From: Halobellus sp. LT62 | GTDB taxonomy: Archaea > Halobacteriota > Halobacteria > Halobacteriales > Haloferacaceae | Direction: 5' to 3' | Assembly: GCF_037031285.1 (NCBI RefSeq) | Contig: NZ_JAYEZO010000001.1 | Coordinates: 1,364,001 to 1,428,000 of the forward strand | DNA length: 64,000 nt | Position numbers and translations under genes: made by a program | The notes under the pieces: model-generated | What the model saw: only the letters and a program-made list of their open reading frames with translations | What the model was told of the DNA's origin: nothing | Database searches by the model: none | Shown here: positions 7,522 to 60,406 of the stretch, in pieces | Position numbering within the stretch: position 1 is the stretch's first letter | Layout of the letters: each line of letters begins with the position of its first letter

Positions 7522-8718
7522 GTGACCGTCACCGTACCCGGACCCACGCTCGGCGTCGTCGGCGGCGGCCAACTCGGCCGGATGCTCGCCGAGGCGGCCG
7601 CCCCGCTCGGCGTCGACGTGGTCGTTCTCGATCCGACGCCGGAGTGTCCCGCCTCGCCCGTCGCCCGCGAACAGGTCGTCGGCGACTTCGACGACCCCGA
7701 GGCGTTCCGCGAACTCGCCTCGAAGGTCGACGCGCTGACCTTCGAGATCGAACTCGCAGACGCCGACCTGCTGGATGAAGTCGCCGACGAGTTCGACCTC
7801 TCGGTGAACCCCGACCCGGCGACGCTCTCGATGATCGAAGACAAGCTCGTCCAGAAGCGCGCGCTCGAAGACGCGGGCGTGCCCGTCCCGCCGTTCCGGA
7901 AGGTCGACGACGCCGACGACCTCCGAGACGCGCTCGATGAGTTCGGCTCGGTGATGCTGAAAGCCCGAACCGGCGGCTACGACGGCCGGGGGAACGTCCC
8001 GGTGACCGACCCCGCCGAGGCCGACGAGGCGATCGAGGCCGTCGGCGGTCCCGCGATGGCCGAGACGTTCGTCGACTTCGCGCGGGAGCTGTCGGTGATC
8101 GCCGTGCAGGGCGACGGCGAGGTCCGCACGTTCCCCGCCGGCGAGAACGTCCACGAGGAGGAGATCCTCAGAGAAACGATCCTCCCTGCGCGCACGAGTG
8201 ATGAGATACTGGAGCGCGCCGACGAGGTCGCCCGCGACGTCCTCTCGACGCTCTCGGGCCGCGGCGTCTTCGGGATCGAGCTGTTCGAGACCCCTGATGG
8301 CGACATCTCGGTCAACGAGATCGCGCCGCGCCCGCACAACTCCGGACACTGGACGATCGAGGGCGCGCGCACCTCGCAGTTCGAACAGCACGTCCGCGCC
8401 GTCCTCGGGTGGCCGCTGGGATCGACCCGCCTGCGCTGTCCCACTGTGATGGCGAACGTCCTTGGAACCGTCGAGGAGTCCAAGCCGGCGCGACTCGGAA
8501 CCGTCGAGGCTGTCCTCGAAAATCAGGACGCCTCGTTGCACTGGTACGGCAAGAGCGAGGTGCGCCCGCTGCGGAAGATGGGACACGTCACCGTGACCGG
8601 TGACGGCGACAGTGAGCGAAGCGACACCGCGTGCGCCGATACCGACGCCGGCGACGGCGACAGCGAAAGGCTCCTCGCGCACGCGAGAGAAATCAGGGAC
8701 GCGCTGACGTTCGAGTGA
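7522..8718 (+). CDS. purK: 5-(carboxyamino)imidazole ribonucleotide synthase
   Basis: 398 aa, GTG start. An ATP-grasp enzyme: GVVGGGQLGRMLAEAA at the N-terminus, KARTGGYDGRGN for ATP binding near residue 150, and EIAPRPHNSGHWTIE with the metal ligands near residue 272. It carboxylates AIR with ATP and bicarbonate in purine synthesis and passes N5-CAIR to PurE, the next gene 37 nt downstream. Near residue 360 there is an insertion rich in Gly, Asp and Ser (GDGDSERSD) in DNA containing a duplicated ggcgacag unit, between the last core strand and the C-terminal helix. Confidence 0.95.
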   Translation: MTVTVPGPTLGVVGGGQLGRMLAEAAAPLGVDVVVLDPTPECPASPVAREQVVGDFDDPEAFRELASKVDALTFEIELADADLLDEVADEFDLSVNPDPATLSMIEDKLVQKRALEDAGVPVPPFRKVDDADDLRDALDEFGSVMLKARTGGYDGRGNVPVTDPAEADEAIEAVGGPAMAETFVDFARELSVIAVQGDGEVRTFPAGENVHEEEILRETILPARTSDEILERADEVARDVLSTLSGRGVFGIELFETPDGDISVNEIAPRPHNSGHWTIEGARTSQFEQHVRAVLGWPLGSTRLRCPTVMANVLGTVEESKPARLGTVEAVLENQDASLHWYGKSEVRPLRKMGHVTVTGDGDSERSDTACADTDAGDGDSERLLAHAREIRDALTFE

Positions 8719-8755
8719 TCGAGTCGCGTCCGAACCAACCATCCCAGAGACAGCA

Positions 8756-9406
8756 ATGACCGATTACACGCCAGCCGACGAAAGCGACGTGACCGTACAG
8801 GACCTGATCGACCGACTCCGCGCCGAAGCCGACGCCGACGTCGATCCCGAAACGACCCCCGACGTCGGGATCATCATGGGGTCGGACTCGGATCTGGAGA
8901 CGATGTCGGGCGCGCACGACGCGCTCTCGGAACTCGGCTTCGCCGAGCAGACGGACTTCCGCGACGCGCCCGACTCGCGCTTTACCTACGAGACGTACGT
9001 CGTCTCCGCGCACCGGACGCCGGAGCTGATGTACGCCTACGGCGAGACTGCCGAGGCGCGCGGACTCGACGTCGTGATCGCGGGCGCGGGCGGCAAGTCC
9101 GCGGACCTGCCGAACATGACTGCCTCGATCGCGTACCCGATCCCGGTCGTCGGCGTCCCCGTCCAAGAGAAGTCCGTCGACTCCGTGATCGGGATGCCGA
9201 CCGGCGCGCCCATCGTCGCCGTCGACGCGGGCAAATCGTTCAACGCCGCGCTGTCGGCCGCACAGATTCTCTCTCGCGAGCACGACGTGCTGCGAGAGCG
9301 GCTCGTCGAGTACCACGAGGGACTGGTCGGCGGCGTCGCCCGCGACTCGCGCGACCTCCACGATCTCGGCGTCGACGCGTACGTCGAGAGCCGACGCGAA
9401 GAGTAA
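8756..9406 (+). CDS. purE: N5-carboxyaminoimidazole ribonucleotide mutase
   Basis: 216 aa from ATG at 8756. The core starts near residue 37 with VGIIMGSDSDLETM and contains VVSAHRTPELM, AGAGGKSADLPNM and GVPVQ, all PurE hallmarks. The enzyme rearranges N5-CAIR to CAIR in purine synthesis; presence of PurK upstream points to the class I reaction. About 36 extra acidic N-terminal residues and about 40 C-terminal ones exceed the usual 160-170 aa bacterial length. Confidence 0.95.
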   Translation: MTDYTPADESDVTVQDLIDRLRAEADADVDPETTPDVGIIMGSDSDLETMSGAHDALSELGFAEQTDFRDAPDSRFTYETYVVSAHRTPELMYAYGETAEARGLDVVIAGAGGKSADLPNMTASIAYPIPVVGVPVQEKSVDSVIGMPTGAPIVAVDAGKSFNAALSAAQILSREHDVLRERLVEYHEGLVGGVARDSRDLHDLGVDAYVESRREE

Positions 9407-9438
9407 CTGACGTCTCGGCCGTCGGGGACGCCGCGGCG

Positions 9439-9446
9439 GTATAAAT
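9439..9446 (+). promoter_or_regulatory. TATA box of the nuo operon
   Basis: GTATAAAT stands out in GC-rich sequence, about 60 nt before nuoA. Transcription from about 25 nt downstream would give a leader of roughly 30 nt. AGGGAG at 9485-9490, eight nt before the ATG, could serve as a Shine-Dalgarno site, so this transcript is probably not leaderless. Confidence 0.6.
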
Positions 9447-9498
9447 CAACGCTTATGGGGGGGCGCTTCTAACCTGCGAACGTCAGGGAGACTACGGA

Positions 9499-9912
9499 AT
9501 GAGTGAATGGATAGCAATCGGGGCACTCGGGCTCGTCGCCGTCGGCATCCCGCTCGGGATGATGGCGGTCTCGGCGATCCTTCGCCCGTCGGTCCCCGAA
9601 CAAGGCAAACGCGCCACCTACGAGAGCGGTGAGGTACCGACCGGCACGGCACGCGTCCAGTTTAACATCCAGTACTATATGGTCGCGCTGCTGTTCGTCG
9701 TGTTCGACGTCGAAACCGTTCTCATCTTCCCGTGGGCCGTCATCTACCGGCCCGCACTGGATCAGGGAGTCGCCCTCTCGACGGTACTGCTGCCGATGCT
9801 CGCATTCGTCGGCATCCTCGTCGTCGGACTGGTCTGGGCGTGGCGCAACGGCGCGGTCAAGTGGGTCAAAAGCCCGCTGGCTAACCGCCGGAAGACGGAG
9901 AGAAACGCATGA
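9499..9912 (+). CDS. nuoA: NADH-quinone oxidoreductase-type complex, subunit A
   Basis: 137 aa with three transmembrane helices. YESGEVPTGTARVQFNIQYY and VVFDVETVLIFPWAV are the conserved NuoA loop and helix 2. NuoA sits beside NuoH/J/K in the membrane arm near the quinone site. It is the first gene of the operon; its stop overlaps nuoB by ATGA. Confidence 0.96.
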   Translation: MSEWIAIGALGLVAVGIPLGMMAVSAILRPSVPEQGKRATYESGEVPTGTARVQFNIQYYMVALLFVVFDVETVLIFPWAVIYRPALDQGVALSTVLLPMLAFVGILVVGLVWAWRNGAVKWVKSPLANRRKTERNA

Positions 9913-10619
9913 GTAGCGAACGAGACACACCATTCGTCACGGACGACACGCAGGTACAGACCGACACGCGGGACGCCCGGATGACGGGCGCTGGCGCGGA
10001 CAACCGCTTCAACTCGAAGCTTCGGGAGGCGTTCGGCTCCTCGCCGTTCATCCTCACGAAGTTCGACCAGTTCATGAACTGGGTCCGCGGCTCCTCGATG
10101 TTTATGCTGCAGTTCGGAATCGCCTGCTGCAGCATCGAGATGATGCACACGTACTCGGTGAAACACGACCTCGACCGGTTCGCGGCCGGGGTGCCCCGCG
10201 CGTCGCCGCGACAGGCTGACGTCATCATCGTCCCCGGAACGATCGTCTCGAAGTTCGCCCCGCGGATGAAGCGCGTCTACGACCAGATGCCCGAGCCGAA
10301 GTTCGTCGTTGGGATGGGCTCCTGTACGATTTCGGGCGGTCCGTTCCAAGAGGGCTACAACGTCATCAAGGGCGCAGAGGAGGTCATCCCGGTCGACATC
10401 CACGTCCCCGGTTGCCCCCCGCGTCCTGAGGCGCTCATCTACGGCGTCGCGAAGCTGCAACAGCGCATCGCCGAGGGCGAGTCGAGTCCGGTGACGGTGA
10501 AGCCGTACGAGCTCGAACAGTTCAACGACCTCGAACAGGACGAAATCGTCGAGAAACTCGCCGAGCAGATCGACGAGGACGATCTGGTGATGCGCTACAA
10601 CTGGGCTGATTCGCCATGA
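9909..10619 (+). CDS. nuoB: NADH-quinone oxidoreductase-type complex, subunit B (N2 cluster)
   Basis: 236 aa. ACCSIEMMH supplies the adjacent cysteine pair, GMGSCTISGGPF and HVPGCPPRPEAL the other two ligands of the 4Fe-4S cluster N2 that passes electrons to quinone. An acidic N-terminal tail of about 45 residues precedes the fold. It overlaps nuoA and nuoCD by four bases on each side, so the three are translationally coupled. Confidence 0.97.
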   Translation: MSSERDTPFVTDDTQVQTDTRDARMTGAGADNRFNSKLREAFGSSPFILTKFDQFMNWVRGSSMFMLQFGIACCSIEMMHTYSVKHDLDRFAAGVPRASPRQADVIIVPGTIVSKFAPRMKRVYDQMPEPKFVVGMGSCTISGGPFQEGYNVIKGAEEVIPVDIHVPGCPPRPEALIYGVAKLQQRIAEGESSPVTVKPYELEQFNDLEQDEIVEKLAEQIDEDDLVMRYNWADSP

Positions 10620-42604: not shown

Positions 42605-42679
42605 GGGCGCTTAGCTCAGTTTGGACAGAGTGCTTGGCTTCGGACCAAGTTGTCGCGGGTTCAAATCCTGCAGCGCCCA
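42605..42679 (+). tRNA. tRNA-Arg (anticodon TCG)
   Basis: Cloverleaf read by eye: acceptor GGGCGCT / AGCGCCC with discriminator A, D-arm with GCTC...GAGT, anticodon stem CTTGG / CCAAG around CTTCGGA, giving anticodon TCG (positions 34-36), and T-arm CGCGGGTTCAAATCCTGCAG. No intron and no encoded CCA. The anticodon reads CGA. Its 3' end is the boundary to the low-GC island. Confidence 0.93.
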
Positions 42680-43128
42680 TTCGTTTTCGTGATGGTCGTG
42701 ATACACAGGACAGCGGTGGGTTCCTTTTAAAGGAACGGCCGTTTTCGCTGTAGAGTCCATTATGTTTCCGAATGGACCGTGCATTGGGGTGTCGCCGTCT
42801 TGTGGTTCGCAAAATACAAGATGGAGGCTAGTGGCTTAGGCTTTGGGCTGCTGGAGGAACAATCTGATAGAAGTTCGGATTGAATCGCCCCAACCCAGCC
42901 GTAATCCGCACGATTGGTAACAATCCCGTTTTCTTGCTTTTCAATGCTTGCAGCGTCGGAATTGAATTCACAACGGGTGTTTAAGCGCCCGCTGAATTTT
43001 CGGAACCCATGCGGATTGTGTGCGGCCGTCACCTCCGTCCGGGACTCGTACCTATCAAAATCGTTGAGGGTTATAAGTTAACGGGCAGATTGAAGGATTA
43101 TCCTTCTACCTCGTTCAGAGTGAGATTC
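42680..43128. other. Non-coding leader between tRNA-Arg and the recombinase
   Basis: No credible gene. It has a near-perfect palindrome GTTCCTTTTAAAGGAAC (42719-42735), then mixed AT-rich sequence before the recombinase start. The palindrome could be a core site or regulatory box. No second copy of the tRNA 3' end is seen in the window. Confidence 0.5.
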
Positions 43129-43797
43129 ATGGCACCGACCCGAGAAAAGTCGCTTAGTGAACGCGAGTTTGAATTACTGCTGGAAGGCGCAGGACGTATT
43201 GACGACCCTACTCAACGACTCGAAGCACGGGCTGCTATTCTAATTGGAGGCCGGCTCGGACTGAGACCTGGAGAGACAACACATCTGAGCGCATCGTGGA
43301 TCGACCAAGAGCGACAGATGATTCGAATCCCCGAACATCACACGTGTACCAAGGGACAAGATGGGGATCTCTGCGGTTATTGTCGCCAGGCAATCGAACA
43401 AAGGCTACGACATAACCCAGATAGTGAATTCGATGATTTTGCTGACCTCTATTGGCTTCCCAAAACAGAAGCGGCCGCTCGAACAATTCCATTCCACTTC
43501 TCGTATCGAGTTAGAGTAGCAATTGACCTCCTGATCACGGAACACGGTGGCTGGCCGTATTCATTCTCAACATTACAGCGAAGATTGAATACTGCCCTTG
43601 ACCTCGCACCGAGTCTCTCCAGAAATGCTACGTCCTTACATGGATTACGTGCAACAGCTGCTTCCCATCACGCAAGTAGAGGGTTAGACCTAGCAGCACT
43701 CCGAGCAATGTTTGGTTGGGAGGACATTGCTACAGCTCGTCAATATCTCAACGTAGATGGAGCGATGACTCGTCGGGCTCTTAACGATATTCACTAG
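43129..43797 (+). CDS. Tyrosine recombinase (integrase) catalytic domain
   Basis: 222 aa from ATG at 43129; the open frame extends upstream to 43009 with non-conserved sequence. Catalytic residues are all visible: Arg46 in GGRLGLRPGE, Lys112 in LPKTEAAARTI, His171 and Arg174 in LHGLRATAASHHA, Trp197 in FGWED and the nucleophile Tyr206 in ARQYLNVDG. A Cys/His cluster (HHTCTKGQDGDLCGYC) may bind zinc. The usual N-terminal SAM-like arm-binding domain is missing or atypical. It stands 450 bp from tRNA-Arg, as an island integrase would, but it also converges on the methyltransferase gene (44 bp gap), so it could serve as the invertase for the repeats there. Confidence 0.88.
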   Translation: MAPTREKSLSEREFELLLEGAGRIDDPTQRLEARAAILIGGRLGLRPGETTHLSASWIDQERQMIRIPEHHTCTKGQDGDLCGYCRQAIEQRLRHNPDSEFDDFADLYWLPKTEAAARTIPFHFSYRVRVAIDLLITEHGGWPYSFSTLQRRLNTALDLAPSLSRNATSLHGLRATAASHHASRGLDLAALRAMFGWEDIATARQYLNVDGAMTRRALNDIH

Positions 43798-43841: not shown

Positions 43842-46800
43842 CTATGGTTTGGGACCTTCTTCTTCGAGGTTCTTGTATTTCTCAAATACTGTATCGAAGT
43901 AGTCTTCAGTCATAATTCGGGGATTCGTGACCCTGTGGAAATCCTTGAGCACAAATTCTGCTTCCTCAGGTTCTAGTCCGTATGCATGGAATGCCGCTGC
44001 ATCAAGTTCGGCTTGAGCCAGCATCCGTTCTTCTTCAGAAGTGGCGGGTTCGATACCGCCCAAACGGGATCTCATCTCAGCAAAGTCGTCCCCATAACAA
44101 TTCAGCTTCGCTGCCCGGTTAGAAACAAACTGGAACCAATTGTCTCCCTTCGTTAGTCGGGGAACCTGTGTTTCCTCAACTTTGTACTTCACCATATTTG
44201 TCTCAATTTTTGTTCGCATCAGGAAATCGAACGGGATACTGTTGATTAGTCCAACAGCGCAGAACAATTCACGGTCAGTGAAGATACGTTCGTATGCGTT
44301 ATGCAGATTTTCTTGTTCCAGGTGCTGCTCCTCTGGATTGAGTTCGTATGGTCTGAAGAGCTGCACTGACTCGATGCATACAGCCCCCTTGGGTATTACC
44401 GTTGCAACCATCGTTCGCTCGTTGGTCGAATTGGAAATCTTCCGGTATCCTATCCGATACTCTGTATAATCTGGGAGGATGTCCGTCTCAGAAAGCTCCT
44501 TACCTCGTTTTTCCTCAAGTAGTTCATCAACGAACTGGATTTGGGACTTGCTGGTTGATTTACCGCCAAATGACTCGTAAATGGATTTCTTCAGGTAACC
44601 TTTGTTGAACGCCTTCTCCCGAACACGGGCACGAGCACTATCTTCAGGATCATCGGTGTCTTTGCTCCAATAACGGGGGGAGGCTAAGTCATCGACGAAT
44701 CTCGAAGTATGGCTAAATTGGTATATATTTTCACCCTCAAGAACCGGATAGTCACCTTCTTCGGGGGATTCAACAAAACGACCCCGGTCCGTCGGTTCAT
44801 GAAGTTCTTTGGTCATTAAGTCAGCCCACCAATCAAACCCATCTCTATTTCCAATTGGCGGATGAGATAGAATTTTATACAGCACATCAGCTTCCCGTTG
44901 AGACGTGATGCCCGGGAAGATTCCAGCTTCAGGGGAGTAATTCGCTAGAACACGCTTTGGTATTTCTACTGCTTCCGCGTCAATTGTTTTTAAAATGTCT
45001 AAATTATTCTGACCAAATAGACCTCGAACATAGTCGGTACTACCGCTATTTTTGAACGTGAGGATTCCAAAGCGGTACCGGTCATCAATATTGTCAAATA
45101 TCCCTTTATTTTCAAACCCGACTATTGTTGCTAGCGATGTGTTTTCCAACAACCAGCTCCGCAGATCCTTCGCAATGGCACCGTTGAAGACAAATCCAGG
45201 GAGAATGAGGCTCACCTCGCCATTTGATGACGCCAACTCAAAAGTCCGCTCAAGAAACAGTGCAGATAGGTCATTTTCGCTTGCAACGGCCCTGCCTGCC
45301 ACTGTAGGGGATTGTAGCGTATATTGTTGGGATTTGTTGAAGTAGTCTGCTCGCCTCTCCATTGTCTGTTTGTGTTTCTTCCACTCCTCAGCGATTTCAG
45401 GATCTTGAAGCAGGTTTTCTTCTACAGCGTCTTTTTGATTCGCATTGTATTGACGGAAGGTCTCGTCATACCGAGAGAAAAAGTCGTGCCTGTTCGGGCT
45501 CAAAACCTCCCACGGTGGATTCCCAATTACCACATCAAATCCTCCATCACGATAAACCGGTGCGAACTCCAGAACCCAATGAAAGGGATAGTACTGTTCC
45601 AGAGTTTGTTCATCAACATCTTCAACACCGGCATTATGAAACTGCTCCAGGATTTTCTGGTCTAGTCTCTTGCTGTGTCCTTCAATTCTGGATTCAGCTA
45701 ACCGCCTAGCGTTCGTTGCATCCTGCGAACTTGTTGCCGACTGATGGCGTTCAATTGCTTCAATAACATCGTTGTACATTTCTTTGACGCCGGTTCCTGC
45801 ACCGCCGCCATAATTTGATAGGGAGGCATCTCCTTCCTCAGTAGCCACCTCGTCAACCTTCGTGAATCCGATGAGTGAGTTGCCCTGTCGGATGTTGAAG
45901 TCGATGTTCGGCAGGGGTTCAACCTCGCTCGGTTCGTCTTCGATATCCGCGACCATCGACAGCCAGAGCCGGAGCTTACAGATTTCGACCGCCCCCTGGT
46001 CAATGTCTACCCCGTAGAGATTATTCAGAATGACCGTCCGCTTCGCGTACAGCGATGCTCCTCCCTGTCCTTTATTGACCTCTTCCAGTTCATCACGTGT
46101 TCGAGAATCTAACTCCCATCCCTTACCTTCGCTTTCGAGTTGCTGGAAGTACTCGATGCACTGCATATAGATATCCACCAACACGTCCTGTGCAGCAAGC
46201 AGGAACGCACCACTACCGACCGCCGGATCAAGAACGTGTACCTCCTTTAGGATGTCATGATACAGCGTTTCGACGTGTTTCGTCTCCACGTTCTCAGTGG
46301 GGACCTGTCGAGTCATCGTTCCGCCATCTGCTAACGCCGCTTCACCACTGCCACCAGCTTCTACGGTAGGGAATCCGAACACGTCGTCAACCTCGCTGTA
46401 TTCGGCGTCAACCGTGTCGTTGAGCTGGTCAAGCAGATACGGATGGATCGTCCGGCGAGACATGAAGCCGGTGATCTCCTCGGGCGTGTAGTACGCACCC
46501 ATCTCTTTCTGGTTGACCGTCTGCTCGAAGATATGCCCGAGAATAGCGGGCGAGAGGTTCTTTGGATCAACGATATCAAGCCGTTCGTCTACGTTCCAGT
46601 TCCACCCAGACAGGAAGTCCAAAATGTCGTCGAACAGTTCGTTTGTTTCTTCGGCAGACTCCCCTAGCTTTGCATCCGAGAAGTCTTCCTCAACAGGATT
46701 CTTGGCAAACAAACCACCGTTCAAGTATGGAAGACTCCCGAAATCGGGGTTCTGCTTGTCTTCTGCAAGGTAGTCAAAGAACAGTGGCCGGTAGAAGTTC

Positions 46801-47474
46801 TCGTACCGATCTTCGCCATCATCTACGACTTCCCCAGGCTGTTCGTGGAGGTAGTTCGGGTTTCGGTCCAGAAGACGCTTTTCCTGAATGAAGTACAGGA
46901 AGATCATCCGATCAAGAACGACCTGCACGTAGCGTTGCTTCGCATCACCACGGTCATCAGGGATACCAGAGACCTCCTGAACGAGATCAGTACGAAGACC
47001 TTCAAACTCCTCGTAAAATTCTTCGACCACCTGTTGTGTATCGTACAGTGTGTCGTAAATTGCCGTAGAGGAGCCGTACTCGATGGAGTTCAGCTTCTTT
47101 AGGACGGTGTTCTTTTCCCCGCTGTCACGCGTGAACTGGTCCTTAGTGAAGGAAATTTTCTGGTGCTTGATTCGACCGTGCTGTTGTCCTTCCCACGTCC
47201 TCATTCGAGTGAGGAAGGTGAACTCATCAAAGTCGTTCGTAGCGACAAGGTTCGTATGCCGGGAACGATTATCCGGCTTGAAGTCTGTGGCTGATTCACC
47301 GGGGCCTGCGTTGACGAGTACAACAAATTCGTCGTCAGCTAGTTGAAGAACGAGTTGGTTGTCTTCTCCAAGGTTCGGACGCGGCTTTAACCCGCGTTTC
47401 TCGAACGAGTTAGCGATGTCTTGGAGGGAGTCCCAGCCTGCAATATCATTCGCGGTGATCTGCTGGAGAGTCAT
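43842..47474 (-). CDS. Eco57I-like N6-adenine DNA methyltransferase, large, with C-terminal recognition region
   Basis: 1210 aa, ATG at 47474. The first 340 residues form an N-terminal domain with no recognised motif beyond RM-like helices. AdoMet motif I is VLDPAVGSGAFLLAA (Asp416), motif IV GNPPWEVL (NPPW at 652-655). The about 500 residues after it hold the presumed target recognition domain and a helical C-terminus that ends EEEGPKP. Eco57I-type enzymes often combine methylation and specificity; no PD-(D/E)XK or other nuclease is obvious, so cutting may come from the PLD-helicase. Codons 488-500 (GVDIDQGAVEIC) fall in the 38-bp inverted repeat, which divides the gene. Gene body is much lower in GC than the core genome. 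Confidence 0.88.
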   Translation of the reverse strand: MTLQQITANDIAGWDSLQDIANSFEKRGLKPRPNLGEDNQLVLQLADDEFVVLVNAGPGESATDFKPDNRSRHTNLVATNDFDEFTFLTRMRTWEGQQHGRIKHQKISFTKDQFTRDSGEKNTVLKKLNSIEYGSSTAIYDTLYDTQQVVEEFYEEFEGLRTDLVQEVSGIPDDRGDAKQRYVQVVLDRMIFLYFIQEKRLLDRNPNYLHEQPGEVVDDGEDRYENFYRPLFFDYLAEDKQNPDFGSLPYLNGGLFAKNPVEEDFSDAKLGESAEETNELFDDILDFLSGWNWNVDERLDIVDPKNLSPAILGHIFEQTVNQKEMGAYYTPEEITGFMSRRTIHPYLLDQLNDTVDAEYSEVDDVFGFPTVEAGGSGEAALADGGTMTRQVPTENVETKHVETLYHDILKEVHVLDPAVGSGAFLLAAQDVLVDIYMQCIEYFQQLESEGKGWELDSRTRDELEEVNKGQGGASLYAKRTVILNNLYGVDIDQGAVEICKLRLWLSMVADIEDEPSEVEPLPNIDFNIRQGNSLIGFTKVDEVATEEGDASLSNYGGGAGTGVKEMYNDVIEAIERHQSATSSQDATNARRLAESRIEGHSKRLDQKILEQFHNAGVEDVDEQTLEQYYPFHWVLEFAPVYRDGGFDVVIGNPPWEVLSPNRHDFFSRYDETFRQYNANQKDAVEENLLQDPEIAEEWKKHKQTMERRADYFNKSQQYTLQSPTVAGRAVASENDLSALFLERTFELASSNGEVSLILPGFVFNGAIAKDLRSWLLENTSLATIVGFENKGIFDNIDDRYRFGILTFKNSGSTDYVRGLFGQNNLDILKTIDAEAVEIPKRVLANYSPEAGIFPGITSQREADVLYKILSHPPIGNRDGFDWWADLMTKELHEPTDRGRFVESPEEGDYPVLEGENIYQFSHTSRFVDDLASPRYWSKDTDDPEDSARARVREKAFNKGYLKKSIYESFGGKSTSKSQIQFVDELLEEKRGKELSETDILPDYTEYRIGYRKISNSTNERTMVATVIPKGAVCIESVQLFRPYELNPEEQHLEQENLHNAYERIFTDRELFCAVGLINSIPFDFLMRTKIETNMVKYKVEETQVPRLTKGDNWFQFVSNRAAKLNCYGDDFAEMRSRLGGIEPATSEEERMLAQAELDAAAFHAYGLEPEEAEFVLKDFHRVTNPRIMTEDYFDTVFEKYKNLEEEGPKP
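45976..46013. repeat. 38-bp inverted repeat, copy A (inside the methyltransferase gene)
   Basis: Perfect match, in the opposite orientation, to 47639-47676. Read on the minus strand it starts GGGGTAGACATTGACCAG and codes GVDIDQGAVEIC at residues 488-500, just after AdoMet motif I. Confidence 0.9.
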
Positions 47475-47638
47475 ACTCTATTGAAACTCCTCTTTTGTGA
47501 TAAGTGATGGTCACTCTATCCGCCTATTCGCTCTGAATTGATTTTTACTGTGTAGAGGAGATATTCGTGATGTTGTGGAGTAAGTCAGCTCTGTCAGTAG
47601 TTTCTTTGTATTTCTGTGAGGGAAGTCACGATTACTGG
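46014..47638. other. Predicted invertible segment (promoter plus 5' half of the methyltransferase)
   Basis: The 1.6-kb interval between the two repeats includes 487 codons and about 160 bp upstream, where the promoter must lie. Recombination between the repeats would reverse this interval and put the 5' half on the plus strand, in frame with the 3' half at 47639-49813. At present the 5' half reads into the left 3' half. Confidence 0.75.
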
Positions 47639-47676
47639 GGGGTAGACATTGACCAGGGGGCGGTCGAAATCTGTAA
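47639..47676. repeat. 38-bp inverted repeat, copy B (start of the silent 3' half)
   Basis: Perfect match to copy A on the other strand. After 38 bases the two regions fall to paralogous similarity, and before it they are unrelated, so the border is sharp. The reading frame through it is the same as in copy A. Confidence 0.9.
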
Positions 47677-49813
47677 ACTTCGATTATGGCTTTCAATGGT
47701 TGCGGACATCGAAGACGAGCCCAACGAGGTCGAACCGCTTCCGAATATCGATTTCAATATCCGACAGGGGAATACACTCATCGGGTTCACGGATGTTGAA
47801 GAAGTAGCCACTGAGAGTGGGGATGCATCTCTTTCGAACTACGGGGGTGGAACTGGGACTGGCATCAAAGAGATGTACGAAGGGGTGATCGAAGCCATTG
47901 AACGTCACCAAGATGCGACAAGCTCTAAAGTTGCTACAAACGCGAGGAAGCTGGCAGAATCACGGATTGATTCTCACAGTGAGAAGCTGAATGAAAAAAT
48001 CCTCAAGCAGTTCCACGATGCTGGTATCGAGAAGGTTGATGAAAAGACGCTAGAAGAATATCACCCGTTCCATTGGGTGATTGAATTTCCTACAATCTAC
48101 CGGGATGGTGGGTTCGACATCATCATCGGGAACCCACCCTGGGACGTACTCACACCTGATCGAAGTCACTTCTTTCCCAAATACGACGAGCGGTTCAGAA
48201 CCCGACCACCAAGTGAAAAAGACCGAAAAGAGGAGGAGCTTCTATCGAATCCTGACATCGCAGCCGAGTATGAAGAATTCAAGAAAAATATGCAGATTCG
48301 GTCTGATTATTATAACTCATCAGACCAGTATGAACTACAGAAACCCACTGTCGGTGGTCAGACCGTTGCCACTGAAACGGACCTTTCACTCCTGTTTTTT
48401 GAGCGAGTTACCCAGTTAGCTGGAGACCAATCATATGTTACCCAGATTATGCCGGGTAATTTCTTCCTTGGAGCGACGGCCAAGGACCTTCGGGAGTATA
48501 TTATCAATAAAACTGAATTGGAGCACTTCGTCCAGTTTGAAAATAAAGACCTTTTCAACAATGTGGATGACCGCTATCATTTTGCCATCTGTACTTTCCG
48601 AAATTCCGGCTCTACGGAAGTAGTAAACGGCGGCTTTGCAAGCGGAGATGCCTCCATACTTATCAATTTCGACAGAGATTCAATTGATATCCCATCAGAA
48701 GTTCTTGCTGAATACTCACCCGAATCACGTATCTTCCCTTTCTTCCGGTCACAAGAATTGATCGACTCGCTGTCTAAATTCGTAGACCATCCTCCAATTG
48801 GAGAGAAAGTTGGGGACGATTGGTTTGTCTCTCTGTACATGAAGGAACTTGACCGGGCAAATGACTCCGATCTCCTCATAGAACAACAAGAGGACGGCGA
48901 TTACCCAATCTACGAAGGGAAGAATATGCACCAGTTCGCCTATGATGACACCTCCGTCTTCGACATCAATCCTATATCTCTCTGGGGAGTGGACGAAGAC
49001 GACCCAGGCCGAAGTGCGAAACACAGAGTTCGGATGAAGAACTTCCGGTCACGTGATCCTGATGCGAGTTTGAAAAAGGCGATCTACAACAAGTTCGGTG
49101 GGTCAGGCTCGCAGAAGTCGTTCGTCAACGATCTGCTTGAGCAACATAGTCGACCAGAGCTATCGAAGGAAGATGTGCTGCTGGACTGCACGAAGTACCG
49201 AATCGCTATTCGAAAGATTACGAATAGCACCAATGAGCGAACATTAATCGCTGGTGTCATTCCAAAGGACACCGTCACTGTACACAGCATCGCCACAGTT
49301 CGCCCCCATGTTGTGGAACCGACAGAGGATGATCTAGGTAATTACCCGATGCACAGCGCCTACGAAGAGGTGTTTACCGATGAAGAATTATTCGTCGTCC
49401 TTGGATTATTGAATAGCATCCCCATCGACTACCTGATGAGGACGAAGATCGACACCAATATCGTCCAATACAAACTTAATGAGACGCAACTTCCTCGACT
49501 CACTGCCAGTGACAACTGGTTTAATTGGATTTCTCAGCGTGCGGCGAGACTGAATTGCTATGGAGACGAATTCTCCGAAATGCGCGACCGCCTAGGAGGT
49601 ATTGACCCAGCTACTGATGCGCAAAAACGCCGGGAGTTACAAGCAGAGATCGACGCTGCTGCATTCCATGCCTATGGGATGAACGAGGAAGAGACAAAAT
49701 TCATCCTCAGTGACTTTTACCAGGTAGACAATCCAAAGCTAATGGATGATCCCTATTTCGATCTCGTGTTTGAGAAGTACTCCGATTTAGATGAAGAGGG
49801 GCCTTACCCGTAG
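47639..49813 (+). pseudogene. Silent alternative 3' half of the DNA methyltransferase
   Basis: About 724 codons to TAG at 49811, open without a stop. It aligns with residues 488-1210 of the neighbouring enzyme: GVDIDQGAVEIC, IGNPPWDVL (NPPW), DCTKYRIAIRKITNSTNERT and the end DLDEEGPYP. The middle, where target recognition is expected, diverges most. It lacks AdoMet motif I and the N-terminal domain, so it cannot act alone; an ATG at 47567 precedes the repeat but gives only unrelated sequence. The intact frame suggests it is kept as an alternative cassette rather than decaying. It is convergent with the PLD-helicase. Confidence 0.85.
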
Positions 49814-49843: not shown

Positions 49844-52800
49844 TCAGGTGCCGATAACGCCCCAACACATTAACCGGGCTTGCACCTCACTTTCTCCGAC
49901 CAACTTAGCTTGGTACTCCGTCGATTCTTCCACGTTCTCCTCCAGGAACGATTCTAACTCTTCTAAGAACTCCACCGGTGGCCAATCTGGGAACGAATCA
50001 TACTGCTCGTTATGCCGGAAGGTCTCCCGAAGGATACGATCTTCATCAGTATTGGCTAACTTCACGTCCTGTAAGTGTTCTCGTAAGTCTTCAGCCCATT
50101 CTTCAAGCGTTTCGTGCTCGTCTACAGGAGCGGATATCTCACCGTGGTTCGGTTGTAAGTAGCGATCGATAAAGTCTAGAATCGTTTCTTGCTCTTTCGA
50201 GAACTTTGCCCCATCCTTGAATATTTGCTCAGTCTGACTGCTCCGAATCGCTTCAAGCCGGTCGTCAAGGACATCTTGGATTGCCTCCCGGTTGGACAAG
50301 ACATTGTCGGCATTCCTGGTGATGGGTTCTCCACCCACCTCAGGGTCGATTTTAAGCGTGCCGACAGGCCGTTCCTTAACTTCGTCTGTGAACGGCTTGT
50401 AGTAGAAGGCCCGTCGGACACGCCCCAGTGGCGATTCGCGGTCGTCATCATCGAACCAGAGGTGTGCAAGTCCGAACACACCCGGGCGTGGACCGGAATC
50501 GTGATCGGTGATATTCGTGTACAGGCGTTCGCGTTCCTCGGGGGACTCCTCAAAGTAGTCTGCGGCGTACTCGAAGTCGTCTTCTGAGAGCCCGAACTCC
50601 TCGTTCAATTCCTTCTTGAGCAGGAACCGCTCGTACGCGGCGTGCTCGTTACTCCCCGCATTTCGAAGGAGCGGGTTCTTACTCGTATCATCGAGTTCGT
50701 TCACGTCCTCGATCTCTCGTGACTTCTGTAGCGAGTCTTCGATCTCGTCCACCTGCAACTCGCCAATCGTCTTTTCGGTTTCTACACCGGTCTTCTCCAG
50801 TATCTGGTCCTCGTTCGGGTCCAGGATGTTGTTCTCTTTCCCAACAATGAGTGCGATGTCGTTGATCTTCGCCTGTAGCCGCTTCAGGAGCTTAATGGCG
50901 GCTTCGATGTCTCCATCAGGGTAGAAGTTGTGGACGTACTTCTCTTCGGTACTCCCAATCCGGTCGATACGCCCTACGCGCTGAACGATCCGCATCGGAT
51001 TCCACGGCAGATCGAACGATATTTGGACAGACACGTCCTGGAGATTGACCCCCTCCGACAGGGTGTCGGTTGCTATGACGTACTGTAGTTCGGATTCACC
51101 GGATTCGGCCAGTGTTTGCTGGTACCCCGAGGCTTCGGGGGCGAATCGCTGAATGACGTCTTGCTTGTTTTCATCACCGCCTTTGACGACAGCACTATTG
51201 GCCTCTGTGAGTGGCGAGTCAGGGTCGTTGAGAAGCGTTCGGTGGACGTAGTCTGCCGTGGCACGGTATTGGGTGAAGACAAGGATCTTCTCGTTATCGT
51301 ATCCGTTGAGAACATCTGCGAGCCGCTCGACCTTCGGGTCACGAAACTCCCGTAACGAGAACACCGCCTCGTAGAACTCTCGTGTCGCCTCATCAACGTC
51401 ACTCAGGTCACTTCGCGGGTAGAGAATCGGGTTTAGTTCCTCTTCGGGAACGTCTGGGAGGACACCGGCATTATGATCGTGAAGCCACTGTCGTGTCGCA
51501 ACAGCTTGGTCGCTCACATCGCCGGAGTCCTGTGCGATATCACCAATAAACTGCGACAAGAAGTACGCCAGCAGCGTCAGATCCTCTCGAATATACGTCT
51601 TCACCTCACCAATTGTTGCATCTGCTAATTCGTCCGTACTGTCACTCTCAGCGTCTTCATCGGCACGGACCGCGGTCGCATCGAATCCAAACTCTTCCAG
51701 CGTCTGTTCGAGGTCTTCGGCGGCATCATCTCCTTCTACAAAGTCATCAAGTGTCTCCGATTCTTCGTCGTCCTGAGCAGCACGCAGCCCATCGATCTGC
51801 TCATCTTCTGGAAGCCCATCAAGAAGGCCGAGGAGTTGGCGTTCGCTACGGTGTAGCGTTTCGATTGACTGTACGAACGCGTACGTCGAAGACTCCAACC
51901 GCTTGAGCAGGTTCAGCTTATACAGCGCCTTCAGTGTCCCACCAGCTTTCGGGTTCTTCACCGTGATGTGCGGAAGGTGGAGCGCGTCCATCACGTCCGG
52001 CAGCATCCGGTACACTGGCTGGTATGCCGCCGGGAGCGAGTACTGCTCCTTGCTGAGCGTTGGCGGCTTGAAACTCATCTCGAAGTCCTCCTCATCCTGG
52101 ATTTGGTCTTTGACGTGCTTCCGCGTCCGGAGCACCATTACCTCATTCAGAATCTTCGAGATCTCTTCCGAATGCCGCTGGAGTTGTTCGGTGATTTTTC
52201 GTTGTTCCTCTTCGGTGGCTTCCTCCTTCCCCGCGGCGATCTTCTTTCGCGTCTCAGAAAGCTCGATGTATTCTTCGAAGGCGTCGAAGTCCAGTGATGC
52301 CTTGTTCCGAAGTTCTTCCGGGCTGGTGAACAGGCTGATGAGGTTCTCTAAGTCGGTCGCGGAGTTGTTGATCGGCGTCGCCGTCAGCATTATCATTGTT
52401 TTCCCACGGAGCTGCCGCAGGTTCGCATGCCGACGCGTTCCTTTGTAGTCGTCTTCGTCGTCCGGGTTCGGTCGCCACTTCCCGTGATTCCGGAAGCGGT
52501 GGGCTTCGTCAATCAGGACGACGTCGAACGCGTCTTTGAGATCCTGTACCTCATCGTAGGTGAGGTTCTGAAACTTGCTAATGCTCATCACGTCCAAGTG
52601 TGTCCCATCGATTTCGAGTCCGAAGTATGGATTCCCGTCTTCGTCTGTGTCGTCTTGGAGGAGGTCTTCCCACTGTTCGGTGAGATTCGCAGGCACGACG
52701 AGGAGACAATGGTCACCACGTTGGCGGTAGTCATGCAGGAGTTCACCGCCGATGAATGATTTTCCGAGCCCGACAGAGTCGGAGATTATGCAGCCGTTGA

Positions 52801-53677
52801 ACCGAGAGAGTTTCTCCTTCGCGCTTTCGTATCCGAGTGTCTGGAAGTAGTACAGCGGGCTGTCGCGGATGTTGACGTTCCCGCTCAGTTCGTCGTACGC
52901 CAGAAGCTTGTACAGTTCGAACGGCTCGATGTACGTCCCTAGGTCAGCAGGCGTGTCTGCATCATCCGTCTCGTCTTCTTGTTGGTCCTGCCAGTCTTGG
53001 TACTTCTCGCTATTCTCGATGATTCGGATAATCTCCTCGCTGAAGTCTTCAGCATTCGCCCACTGGTTATCGTACCAGTCTTCGAATGCCTCTGCATCAG
53101 GCCGGTCTTGGCTTGTGAGATTCAGTTCAATGTTGTTCCGGTGGCCACTCGCGGTGAAGTTTGAGGATCCGACGATCGTTGCACATGGGCGTGTGTCTGT
53201 GTTCTCGCCAGTTGCCCAGTCGTCATCATCTTGCGGAGCTCTAAACGAGGCTCCTTTGGCGTGGAAGTAGCCGTTTTCTGGATTTCGCACACGGACGCTA
53301 ACCTTGTCTTCGGCTATGAAGTCTCGTAGCCGATCCAACCGGCCTAACTGCGCGTTGTTGAGTTCCTCGATGCTCTCCTCGACCTCGCCCCTGAGTTCGT
53401 CGCGTAGGCTTTGACCCTCCCCGATCTCCTCTGCTGTACTGCGGTTCGTTTGCCGCCCCATTAATATACGAAGTGGGGCGTGGCCAAGTTCGTCTGAGTC
53501 GGCAAGTTGTTCGAGGTCTTTGCGGTACAGGTCGAATCCAGAGAGATAGAAGTAGCCGGTGGCGATACGTGCTTCTTCGATTTGCGGGATGATTTTCTTG
53601 TAGACGTCTTCGACCGTCCGATCAGCGTTATCGACGAGGGGAGGGAGAGAAATCATCGTGTTGCCGAATATAACCAT
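49844..53677 (-). CDS. PLD-nuclease-like and SNF2 helicase fusion
   Basis: 1277 aa, ATG at 53677. Residues about 10-200 are a phospholipase-D-like fold with one HKD motif (GYFHAKGASF, His139 and Lys141, and GSSNFTASGH). Residues about 270-900 form an SNF2/SF2 helicase: GLGKS at 303-307, DEAH at 390-393, MLTATPINNS and QRVGRIDRIGS for motif VI. The long C-terminus is acidic and helical. Such PLD-helicases are frequent in phage-defence loci, usually next to a methyltransferase. It is on the same strand as the methyltransferase but separated from it by the silent cassette. Confidence 0.88.
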   Translation of the reverse strand: MVIFGNTMISLPPLVDNADRTVEDVYKKIIPQIEEARIATGYFYLSGFDLYRKDLEQLADSDELGHAPLRILMGRQTNRSTAEEIGEGQSLRDELRGEVEESIEELNNAQLGRLDRLRDFIAEDKVSVRVRNPENGYFHAKGASFRAPQDDDDWATGENTDTRPCATIVGSSNFTASGHRNNIELNLTSQDRPDAEAFEDWYDNQWANAEDFSEEIIRIIENSEKYQDWQDQQEDETDDADTPADLGTYIEPFELYKLLAYDELSGNVNIRDSPLYYFQTLGYESAKEKLSRFNGCIISDSVGLGKSFIGGELLHDYRQRGDHCLLVVPANLTEQWEDLLQDDTDEDGNPYFGLEIDGTHLDVMSISKFQNLTYDEVQDLKDAFDVVLIDEAHRFRNHGKWRPNPDDEDDYKGTRRHANLRQLRGKTMIMLTATPINNSATDLENLISLFTSPEELRNKASLDFDAFEEYIELSETRKKIAAGKEEATEEEQRKITEQLQRHSEEISKILNEVMVLRTRKHVKDQIQDEEDFEMSFKPPTLSKEQYSLPAAYQPVYRMLPDVMDALHLPHITVKNPKAGGTLKALYKLNLLKRLESSTYAFVQSIETLHRSERQLLGLLDGLPEDEQIDGLRAAQDDEESETLDDFVEGDDAAEDLEQTLEEFGFDATAVRADEDAESDSTDELADATIGEVKTYIREDLTLLAYFLSQFIGDIAQDSGDVSDQAVATRQWLHDHNAGVLPDVPEEELNPILYPRSDLSDVDEATREFYEAVFSLREFRDPKVERLADVLNGYDNEKILVFTQYRATADYVHRTLLNDPDSPLTEANSAVVKGGDENKQDVIQRFAPEASGYQQTLAESGESELQYVIATDTLSEGVNLQDVSVQISFDLPWNPMRIVQRVGRIDRIGSTEEKYVHNFYPDGDIEAAIKLLKRLQAKINDIALIVGKENNILDPNEDQILEKTGVETEKTIGELQVDEIEDSLQKSREIEDVNELDDTSKNPLLRNAGSNEHAAYERFLLKKELNEEFGLSEDDFEYAADYFEESPEERERLYTNITDHDSGPRPGVFGLAHLWFDDDDRESPLGRVRRAFYYKPFTDEVKERPVGTLKIDPEVGGEPITRNADNVLSNREAIQDVLDDRLEAIRSSQTEQIFKDGAKFSKEQETILDFIDRYLQPNHGEISAPVDEHETLEEWAEDLREHLQDVKLANTDEDRILRETFRHNEQYDSFPDWPPVEFLEELESFLEENVEESTEYQAKLVGESEVQARLMCWGVIGT

Positions 53678-57679: not shown

Positions 57680-58240
57680 TTAGAAATTTCGACCTGTCGA
57701 GACGCCAGCGGATGGCGTCGGTCCAATGGGCTCCGGGCCCCCGTCATCCACTACCTTATAGAATTTTAGCGTGCGCTCCGTGTCGTCATGATACCGAATA
57801 TCCCCAAGTTGCATCTCTTCGTCGATGAACTCCCCTACCCGTACCTGATGCACTCCTTTCGAGATCGTGGGTGGATCGTAGGCGTGAATATGGACGTGAT
57901 ACACTGTGGAAGTGCCTTGCACGCCATTTGCCGTATAATTCGCATCCTGATTGTATGATTCATCGACTCCAACAAACTCGATTTCAGTCCCTGAGATGGT
58001 TACAGTTAACCGATCCTCCTTCGGAGCCCGCACCTTCCGAAAGGAGGTCGCTTTCGACGCCGGTAAAACGCCCGTCGCGATCTCTTCTTCGATATCACAC
58101 CGCTCACATCGAAACGTCGTCTGAACACGTTTCGAGACTGTCGACCGCGGCATCGTCTTCGCCGACGACTTCCGTACTTTCTCTACTCGGACACACCCGT
58201 CCTCCAATCCGCCACACGCTATACACTCCACACGAAACAT
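57680..58240 (-). CDS. Unknown protein with N-terminal zinc-finger pairs
   Basis: 186 aa, ATG at 58240. FRVECIACGGLEDGCVR and FRCERCDIEEE supply CxxC pairs that could bind one or two zinc ions. Residues 80-150 are beta-rich (RLTVTISGTEIEFVGVDESY, VYHVHIHAYDPP). Probably acts with the 476-aa protein downstream. No recognised family. Confidence 0.65.
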   Translation of the reverse strand: MFRVECIACGGLEDGCVRVEKVRKSSAKTMPRSTVSKRVQTTFRCERCDIEEEIATGVLPASKATSFRKVRAPKEDRLTVTISGTEIEFVGVDESYNQDANYTANGVQGTSTVYHVHIHAYDPPTISKGVHQVRVGEFIDEEMQLGDIRYHDDTERTLKFYKVVDDGGPEPIGPTPSAGVSTGRNF

Positions 58241-59621
58241 AGGCTAATTCTAATCCCCAATTGAGAAATAGCTTGGTCAGACATCTGTCCGACCCCTTCC
58301 CGACCATTGTGGTCGTTCATCTCGAGAAGACAGCCAATCATCCGGAGAATATTGTGTCCGACGAGCCGGGGGGTGAGAGCGACAGCGCCTACCTCGAACG
58401 GAACACCATTGCGTTCGTGAGAACTACGGTAAAGCCCCGGTTGACCCCCGGCCGAATGGGTGGCTCGGCACCGATAGCTAGAGTTAGAAAATTCGAAAGT
58501 CAGAGCTCTCGGACTCAACCACGTCGACGAGTCCTACGACCCGACCTGTCTCGACCAATTGGCCGGGGCTATCGAGGAGATCAAACTCCTGTAACAGAGC
58601 TCCAACGATTTCATCCTCTATTGAGTCCAGTGGCCCGTGGGAAGCCCCGAATTTTATTGATAATTGGTCGGGGTTGGCCGGGGTATCGTAACGATGTCTC
58701 CGGGGGACTCCAAAAATTGGTCGGGGATCCAATGAAGAGTTGGTCGGGGAGTGAGGGGAGCGAGTATCACACGTGGACACAAGTCAAAAGCTTAAACGAG
58801 AAACGCTCAAATCCCGGACGTCCCCGACCAATTAGGGAGCTTCCCCGACCAATTAGGGAGCTTCCCCGGCCAATTTCGCGGCTTACACTCCGCCCAGACA
58901 CCCAGCGACTCGAGTACCGACCCTCACAGTCTACCGACCATGTATACGCGAAATATTAGCTGCCCCGACCATTGGGGTCCATTCGCGTCGGGGAGACCCG
59001 ACCAATTACTCACTCGGCTCTTTCGATTCCACTTCCGATCATCGAGGGCTTGAGTCGAGACCCCGACGATCAGGATTGAATCCAATCCTGAAAACTAACC
59101 TCGCCCCGGTGCTCCATCGGTGGAGCCCCGACAGACGAACACTTGATGCCCCCGAAAGTTTTGAATCCTTCTTGGCCGTGCATCTAGAGCTGATCAACAA
59201 TTGGGGAAATTATAGGCAGAGATGTATTCTACCTGCCATCTCGCTTTTATCTCTCCCGACTAATTGATGAGCAACCCCCGACCAATTTACCGGCTCATAC
59301 CCCGTCGAGACGTGGATCGACTCGAGGTACGAGCCTTCACAGTACGTAGTCCCACCCTAGAAAGACGGTGCACATTTGCTGTACTCCTCACATTGTGGCT
59401 CGTTCACCTCGGTGAGCCTCGACCAATTGTTCGGATACCGGTGGGCTCGATGATACGTCGAACTCGCAAAATATAATTCGGTCGACGACATCCTGATCAG
59501 ATTCGGAACACCCCAAAGACTCCGGATCGTTCCAACCTTCGAATGTTACAGCAATTATGCGACGTATTGGCGAAATTGAGAATTTCACCAGGACCGACCA
59601 ATTCATCATTATCTCTCCGAT
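58241..59621. repeat. Gene-free tract with about fifteen CCCCGACCAATT motifs
   Basis: No credible gene, though short ORFs exist. The motif CCCCGACCAATT or close variants occur at 58299, 58552, 58822, 58843, 58864, 58963, 58997, 59255, 59276, 59421 and 59593 on the plus strand and, as AATTGGTCGGGG, at 58662, 58674, 58715 and 58738. Three copies at 58822-58875 form a 21-bp tandem. Spacing is otherwise irregular, so it is not CRISPR. Function unknown. Confidence 0.75.
58821..58883. repeat. 21-bp tandem repeat, three units
   Basis: TCCCCGACCAATTAGGGAGCT is repeated at 58821, 58842 and 58863, the third unit with two or more changes. Part of the wider motif tract. Confidence 0.85.
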
Positions 59622-59639
59622 ATGAATTGGCATAGACCA

Positions 59640-60406
59640 ATGTCGGCTGAAACAGTTGCCGGGGTAGATTGGGCGAGTGAAGACTGGCTTGCCGTCGTAA
59701 TAGAGAACGGAGATCCGGTAGATTATCTTCTTGAAAACGATTTCTCGTCAATCTGGGAATCCGATCGAGACTTCAATCGGATCTTGATTGACGTGCCGAT
59801 TGGGTACCCCACAATAACGAGACACTCGAAAAACGCGAAAAGCTCGACTCCGTTGCTCGAACTGCAACTGGACGGTCGAGTTGTGTGTTTCCTGTCCCGT
59901 CGAGAACGGTATGTCAAAAGGCGAAAAATGGACAAGACTACCAGACAGTAGTAGATATAAATCAAGAGGACCTAAGGAAGGGGCTCACCTGGCAGTCATA
60001 CTATATTGCCCCAAGTATCGGCGAAATTGATGAGTTTCTCGAGAACAACGAGACAGCAAAAGAGACGATCATAGAATCTCACCCTGAGGTCTGCTTTTGG
60101 GGGCTGCTCGGTGACCAACCCAGCCACTCGAAAATGAGTGCCCAGGGAATCGGTGAGCGACTTGATGCACTCGACAGACATCTAGATGCCCCCGAGGCGG
60201 TATTCGGGCAGATCTGCCGAGACCTTGTGGGTGAGCAGACCGACATTGATCCCGATGATGTAGTGGACGCGCTCGGTCTGGCTGTCGTCGCTTGTCACTC
60301 TAGAGAGGAACTTCGGTTTCTGCCAGACGGCGAGGAGTATTGCGATGGAGTAGGAATTCCGATACAGATGGCGTACTGGAGCGAAGAGAGTTTGTTGAAA
60401 CACTGA
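59640..60406 (+). pseudogene. DUF429 family protein split by a frameshift
   Basis: The first part (VAGVDWASEDWLAVVIENG, then ILIDVPIGYP) is the DUF429 N-terminus. After codon about 59 the reading continues in the frame of 59822 onward: TLEKREKLDSVARTATGRSS, VFPVPSRT, then ESHPEVCFWGLLG, DDVVDALGLAVVA. In the family these lie in one protein of about 250 aa. A one-base change at about 59810-59822 breaks it. The DUF429 fold is RNase H-like but its role is unknown. Confidence 0.8.

Follow-up and report, generated by a model that had tools for sequence, protein, structure and literature searches.

An array of short sites inside a haloarchaeal tRNA-Arg island: probably the partly decayed docking region of a recombination system rather than a replication origin

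What is the array of short, closely related sites that lies in the middle of a low-GC island of the haloarchaeon Halobellus sp. LT62, and does it serve any purpose there at present? The stretch of DNA analysed here, henceforth the window, comprises 64,000 nucleotides (C1:1364001-1428000 of the 3.23-Mb genome), and coordinates are window positions unless another locus is named. Within the tract 58241-59621 the 12-mer CCCCGACCAATT occurs 5 times exactly, 10 times with at most one mismatch, 14 times with at most two and 18 times with at most three, as against means of 0.00, 0.02, 0.17 and 1.73 in dinucleotide shuffles of the same tract. At the two-mismatch threshold no shuffle contained more than 2 copies. 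An earlier sequence-only reading, which had proposed about fifteen copies of such a motif on both strands, is confirmed by these counts.

The motif is asymmetric and, in contrast to the parS sites that go with a parA/parB operon, not palindromic. Its 14 sites with at most two mismatches (58549..59603) start at 58549, 58557, 58662, 58715, 58738, 58822, 58843, 58864, 58963, 58996, 59254, 59276, 59417 and 59592, and fall into blocks of one site on the plus strand, four on the minus strand and nine on the plus strand, with only weak matches in the first 300 bp of the tract. The first two overlap in opposite orientations at 58549..58568 (TCTCGACCAATT on the plus strand, CCCCGGCCAATT on the minus strand), and it is this pair that had been noticed as the self-complementary CGACCAATTGGCCGGGG at 58552-58568. 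On the minus strand follow an exact site succeeded by a half copy, AATTGGTCGGGGTTGGCCGGGG (58662..58683), 21 of whose 22 bases recur in the array of L022, likewise a Halobellus locus, a second exact site (58715..58726), and a site with one mismatch (58738..58749). The plus-strand block includes a 21-bp tandem at 58821..58883, which the sequence-only reading had also recognized and which indeed holds three copies (sites 58822, 58843 and 58864), two of them identical and the third at 76%. Beyond it lie two sites 33 bp apart (58963..59007), with two mismatches at 58963 and one at 58996, a site with one mismatch at 59417..59428, and a site with two mismatches at 59592..59603, 18 bp ahead of a DUF429-type gene. 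The plus-strand segments 58844..58930 and 59255..59343, the latter with the sites 59254 and 59276, form a diverged segmental duplication (72% identity) which accounts for a few of the motif copies, and a short inverted repeat, TCAGGATTG-AATC-CAATCCTGA, was found by self-match inside the array at 59070..59091. With intervals between sites of 21 to 258 bp and both orientations represented, the array lacks the regular repeats and constant-length unique spacers of a CRISPR, which had rightly been excluded from the outset.

The description of the tract as non-coding needs to be qualified at 58354..58580 on the plus strand, where the 3' end of a gene, now decayed, runs into the array. The intact homologue of this gene is an open frame of 239 residues from a different Halobellus genome (L037/L084), to which the remnant is 66% identical at the DNA level over about 222 bp. 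The intact frame matched no Pfam family, and its designation as GIY-YIG was unsupported by this search. The overlapping pair of sites lies within this remnant, and the DNA that it occupies is equal in length to the homologous coding DNA of L037. The tract is thus, as judged from the alignment, partly decayed coding DNA. It is flanked on the left by a minus-strand gene for a 186-aa protein with no family found (57680..58240) and on the right by the gene for the DUF429 protein (59622..60406, plus strand), which is present as two overlapping frames and is apparently frameshifted. An Rfam search returned the tRNA described below as its only match.

The motif is rare elsewhere in the genome. The 3.2-Mb sequence contains 7 exact copies, 5 in the tract and 2 in a single second cluster at C2:550 kb, where they lie 450 bp apart, and 10 of the 27 genome-wide copies with at most one mismatch are in the tract. 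This excludes an even spread over the chromosome, the pattern that the sequence-only reading had set against its own proposal, and the small number of copies in two clusters is likewise at odds with a DNA uptake sequence, which is present in many copies throughout a genome. Plasmid and phage collections searched with the tract yielded no similar tract, with a single 32-base chance match, and viral contigs contained neither close pairs of the motif nor a match to the two recombinases searched; the suggestions of a partition or packaging site are accordingly unsupported.

The same reading had offered the replication origin of an integrated plasmid as an option. Inverted, repeated sites with a G-run at the end do recall the ORBs of haloarchaeal origins (PMC3528665): AATTGGTCGGGG has an ORB-like G-string end (GGGG), the sites invert around 58750-58820, and one array of the motif resides on a plasmid, p163 of Halorubrum sp. 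BOL3-1. However, haloarchaeal ORB origins are recognised by their adjacency to orc/cdc6 genes (PMC3528665), whereas the nearest of the four Orc/Cdc6 genes of this genome lies 339 kb from the tract, and over 500 kb separate the second cluster from every one of them. No replication genes were recognised among the scanned neighbours of the tract, whose GC content of 53%, in an island of about 50%, comes without an AT-rich core between the inverted sites. Hence, an origin or partition site is the weakest of the explanations considered and highly improbable.

The tract is set in a virus-defence island of 29 kb at a tRNA-Arg gene, which carries three tyrosine recombinases. GC content drops from about 67% to about 50% past 42 kb of the window, and the tRNA-Arg gene is at 42605..42679 (plus strand). 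The last 15 bp of its 3' end (TCCTGCAGCGCCCAT) recur beyond the window at window coordinate 71756, which defines the ends of the island; it thus comprises window positions 42605-64000 and L019 up to 8771. The only recombinase gene of the island within the window (43009..43797, plus strand, PF00589) is at its left end, and the other two lie to the right of the window at 64590-65843 and 70632-71681, the latter next to the repeat at 71756. The cargo consists of a type IIG restriction-modification protein (43842..47474, minus strand), a truncated paralogue of it, a PLD-helicase (HKD+Snf2) defence protein (49844..53677, minus strand), an AbrB/PIN pair, and unnamed genes. The truncated paralogue (47567-49813) is encoded on the opposite strand, is 58% identical to the longer protein and is missing the N-terminal part. 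The tract lies inside this island and not at an end of it, the closest known recombinase genes being at distances of about 5 kb on its right side, beyond the window edge, and 15 kb on its left side, and neither the tRNA-Arg gene nor its repeat is accompanied by motif copies.

A survey of the exact 12-mer in 170 genomes of the Haloferacaceae recovered mostly single copies. Clusters were found at 15 loci, which fall into about five homologous families. Besides the present genome, they come from two further genomes of Halobellus and from a few more members of the Haloferacaceae. Family (a) (L021, L023, L070, L071, L072) is flanked on one side by an unnamed 216-aa protein and on the other by a recombinase of about 450 aa, with the arrays partly within the first codons of the latter; in L021 and L023 some sites are coding and correspond to Pro-Asp-Gln heptads at the N terminus of the recombinase. 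In Halobellus captivus the L021 recombinase (8593-9986) is broken up into two frames, and its L023 homologue is intact. Family (b) unites L018, the second cluster of the present genome, with L020 of H. captivus at 88% identity. Family (c) (L022, L033, L101) adjoins genes for nucleotidyltransferases (MNT) and partly also hicAB genes. Family (d) (L075, L092, L093, L103) has units of about 250 bp that extend up to the stop codon of a recombinase of about 200 aa, and two of its members, L092 and L103, also have short tandems of 34-58 bp. These motif-bearing tandems lie at the recombinase stop codon (L092 12129-12340, L103 9449-9707) and differ in number between homologous loci. The window tract constitutes family (e). 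Type I-B cas-like genes, identified by eye, are present near motif clusters in two genera (L020 12328-19901, L075 1-1511).

With the motif masked, the window tract resembles none of the other array families, and the copying around of a single repeat element is thereby ruled out. Descent of the 21-bp tandem of the window from the Pro-Asp-Gln heptads of the L021 recombinase is conceivable, given a match of 37% over 46 residues; the similarity of the underlying DNA vanishes once the motif is masked. L092 is the array of plasmid p163, and beside it lie homologues, each 59% identical, of the PLD-helicase and the type IIG enzyme of the window island. The unnamed 216-aa protein (L021 10540-11190 and homologues; 'RPRGILTPTDREYLCG') belongs to a family without a Pfam match that is present in 103 of 167 family genomes, often near recombinases. 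As a candidate binder of the motif it was rejected, being widespread and missing near several arrays.

The most consistent companions of the clusters are tyrosine recombinases, a link beyond the reach of the sequence-only reading. By means of a profile of nine recombinases, we located a gene of this kind no farther than about 5.5 kb from the centre of the cluster at 13 of 15 cluster loci, compared to 4 of 27 loci picked solely for one copy of the 12-mer, counts that are weakened by the grouping of the 15 loci into about five homologous families and by the commonness of recombinases in islands. The two cluster loci without a match are L093, where a recombinase remnant lies beside the array, and the window. 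A reverse test, in which the Haloferacaceae were searched for the recombinase of about 200 aa and the motifs around each gene were counted, is more telling than this association. In the subfamily of these recombinases, whose members are about 90% identical or more and come from two genera, the motif lies 3' of the gene at five of five loci (p163 among them), each with several 3' sites at the two-mismatch threshold and at most one weak 5' copy. Relatives at 65-74% identity have a cluster in none of 26 cases, one single weak match aside. The homology between such loci takes in recombinase and array together as a single block, which in most comparisons (L092 standing for p163) starts abruptly on the left, 126-129 bp ahead of the start codon. 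In L103, L115 and L116 the shared block runs on into a convergent nuclease gene.

The arrangement of the sites suggests recognition by a protein. Gaps between same-strand neighbours, where they do not exceed 60 bp, concentrate at 10-12, 21-23 and 31-34 bp, on whole turns of the helix as in protein-binding arrays, and for the 13 gaps obtained with one locus per family the phasing is significant (Rayleigh p = 5e-5; best period 10.5-11), with the qualification that two gaps in each of two loci stem from 21-bp tandem copies and are non-independent. The sites also appear to be conserved. A two-sequence comparison was dropped, given that choosing sites by consensus in one sequence roughly halves the expected divergence, and in its place a test with a third sequence was used: when sites were picked in one locus, its homologues agreed with each other at 0.73 against 0.645 at random positions, and none of 300 resamplings was as high. 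A looser site definition gave 0.69 against 0.64 (p = 0.003). The signal comes mainly from family (d), and the Halobellus part is weak. In view of the near-helical spacing and the conservation in homologous loci we favour a protein-binding array, which was among the options of the sequence-only reading.

A protein that binds the sites would not have to be part of a recombination system, as helical spacing is compatible with any DNA-binding protein. The sites might be operators for a transcription factor, or for an island toxin-antitoxin or nuclease regulator, which silences or controls the neighbouring genes, with the recombinases as fellow travellers. Arrays do adjoin MNT and hicAB genes (L022, L033, L101) or a convergent Mrr-type nuclease (L103, L115, L116), and others are situated at the divergent promoters of the unnamed protein and a recombinase (L021, L023, L070-L072). 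Nevertheless, the array of the recombinase block sits between convergent 3' ends and not at a promoter, the flanking genes vary from locus to locus while recombinases recur, and 14 sites over 1 kb would make a long operator; we regard a regulatory array as rather unlikely.

The first of the alternatives is that the array does nothing at present, the motif having multiplied in the past, as the island DNA decayed, through slippage, duplication and exchange between repeats. It is in keeping with the decayed genes in the tract and its sister tracts, the diverged segmental duplication, the dissimilarity of the window tract to other families outside the motif, and the fact that the homologous tracts L018 (9350-9371) and L020 (10415-10540) differ in length by about 104 bp, with motif copies exactly at the bounds of the difference. 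On the other hand, a neutral relic would predict neither the helical phasing, nor the conservation of sites, nor the fixed position 3' of one recombinase subfamily. The L018 cluster is also instructive in this regard, as it holds a decayed Mrr-type nuclease gene that is intact in L101, L115 and L116. A perfect site of L018 replaces 12 bases of the intact gene with no change in length and shares 4 of 12 bases with it, which is in the lowest 2% of windows; for another site the number is 7 of 12, nothing out of the ordinary. The perfect site is one clear case in which a copy of the motif has arisen in place, without insertion, and it speaks against a relic and for the recombination-linked array set out below. 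We therefore consider a functionless relic unlikely, and place it ahead of operators, exchange sites and an origin, in this order.

Taken together, these observations point to an array of short putative protein-binding sites of an island site-specific recombination system, comparable to arm-type sites, of which the window array would be an orphan and decaying member: no recombinase adjoins it, it lies inside the island, and it is interleaved with decayed genes. We put the probability of this reading, tentatively, at roughly two in five. Under it, the recombinase or a partner protein would occupy several CCCCGACCAATT sites that face the same side of the helix and build a looped complex, the array acting as an arm-type accessory to an adjacent attachment or control region. 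Such binding, we infer, would serve recombination or its control. The window array may have lost, or never had, an adjacent recombinase, and might still be usable in trans. Weighing against this interpretation are the very absence of a recombinase beside the window tract and of motif copies at the island ends, the possibility that a shared location in islands accounts for part of the recombinase association, the coding nature of some sites in L021 and L023, and the lack, in the recombinases of about 200 aa, of the N-terminal domain through which lambda Int binds its arm sites.

A further-reaching version of this interpretation, which we consider quite improbable as a whole, would posit an undescribed haloarchaeal module of a tyrosine recombinase and a dedicated CCCCGACCAATT array that travels with nuclease, toxin and restriction genes through defence islands, gains sites in place in decaying neighbours, and leaves orphan arrays as exchange or docking points in trans. 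How the islands that house archaeal defence genes are assembled is poorly understood, and an island-marking motif that travels with particular recombinases could offer a handle on how defence modules are joined. A compact recombinase-plus-array block for the bench is available in Halorubrum sp. BOL3-1 p163 (int EKH57_RS18005, array 3'). Even as a relic the array would be a useful marker in the islands of Halobellus and its relatives.

Among known systems, the integrons and CALINs, including the archaeal ones (PMC9668308, in the part covered here), resemble the present loci in having a recombinase beside an array of repeated sites and in the occurrence of orphan arrays. This likeness raises the alternative of an integron-like array without its integrase, in which the motif would be part of each recombination site and a recombinase would exchange the intervening segments in trans. 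The position of the array at the 3' side of a recombinase, the gain or loss of the 104-bp segment exactly between motif copies, and one site of L075 framed by CCCGGGAG and CTCCCGGG are all compatible with it. In contrast to integrons, there are no gene cassettes between the sites, the intervals of the tract being devoid of credible genes, the recombinases of about 200 aa match, among the profiles searched, the plain Phage_integrase domain (PF00589) only, and arms of the CCCGGGAG/CTCCCGGG type are absent around the window sites, all of which make an exchange-site array very unlikely. A term search of the integron survey found no mention of haloarchaea in the part covered.

The integrase-bearing defence islands of haloarchaea (PMC11078007) share with the present island the low GC content, the integrases and the restriction-modification genes; no repeat array is reported for them, the word 'repeat' occurring nowhere in that text. 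The closest parallel to the recombination-linked array that we favour is attP of the lambda type, which likewise has many short, asymmetric sites in both orientations, some adjacent at 10-12 bp, near a tyrosine recombinase gene, and helically phased short repeats are common to both. In most sister loci the recombinase is adjacent, as in lambda, whereas in the window the distances are 5 and 15 kb. The arrays differ from lambda attP in having up to 14 sites over 1 kb, or units of about 250 bp in Halorubrum, in the small partner recombinases without an arm-binding domain, and in that no core site was identified beside the sites, the island att repeat TCCTGCAGCGCCCAT being 16 and 12 kb off. In the portion of the review of archaeal tyrosine recombinases considered here, the lambdoid multi-site attP is treated as an exceptional case, and no example from archaea was encountered (PMC8371274). 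Neither there nor in the covered part of the survey PMC9668308 is a comparable haloarchaeal array described, and CCCCGACCAATT was not found in the literature searched. Thus, relative to these sources, the motif, its architecture and its distribution in islands appear to be new, while arrays of binding sites linked to recombinases are in principle already known.
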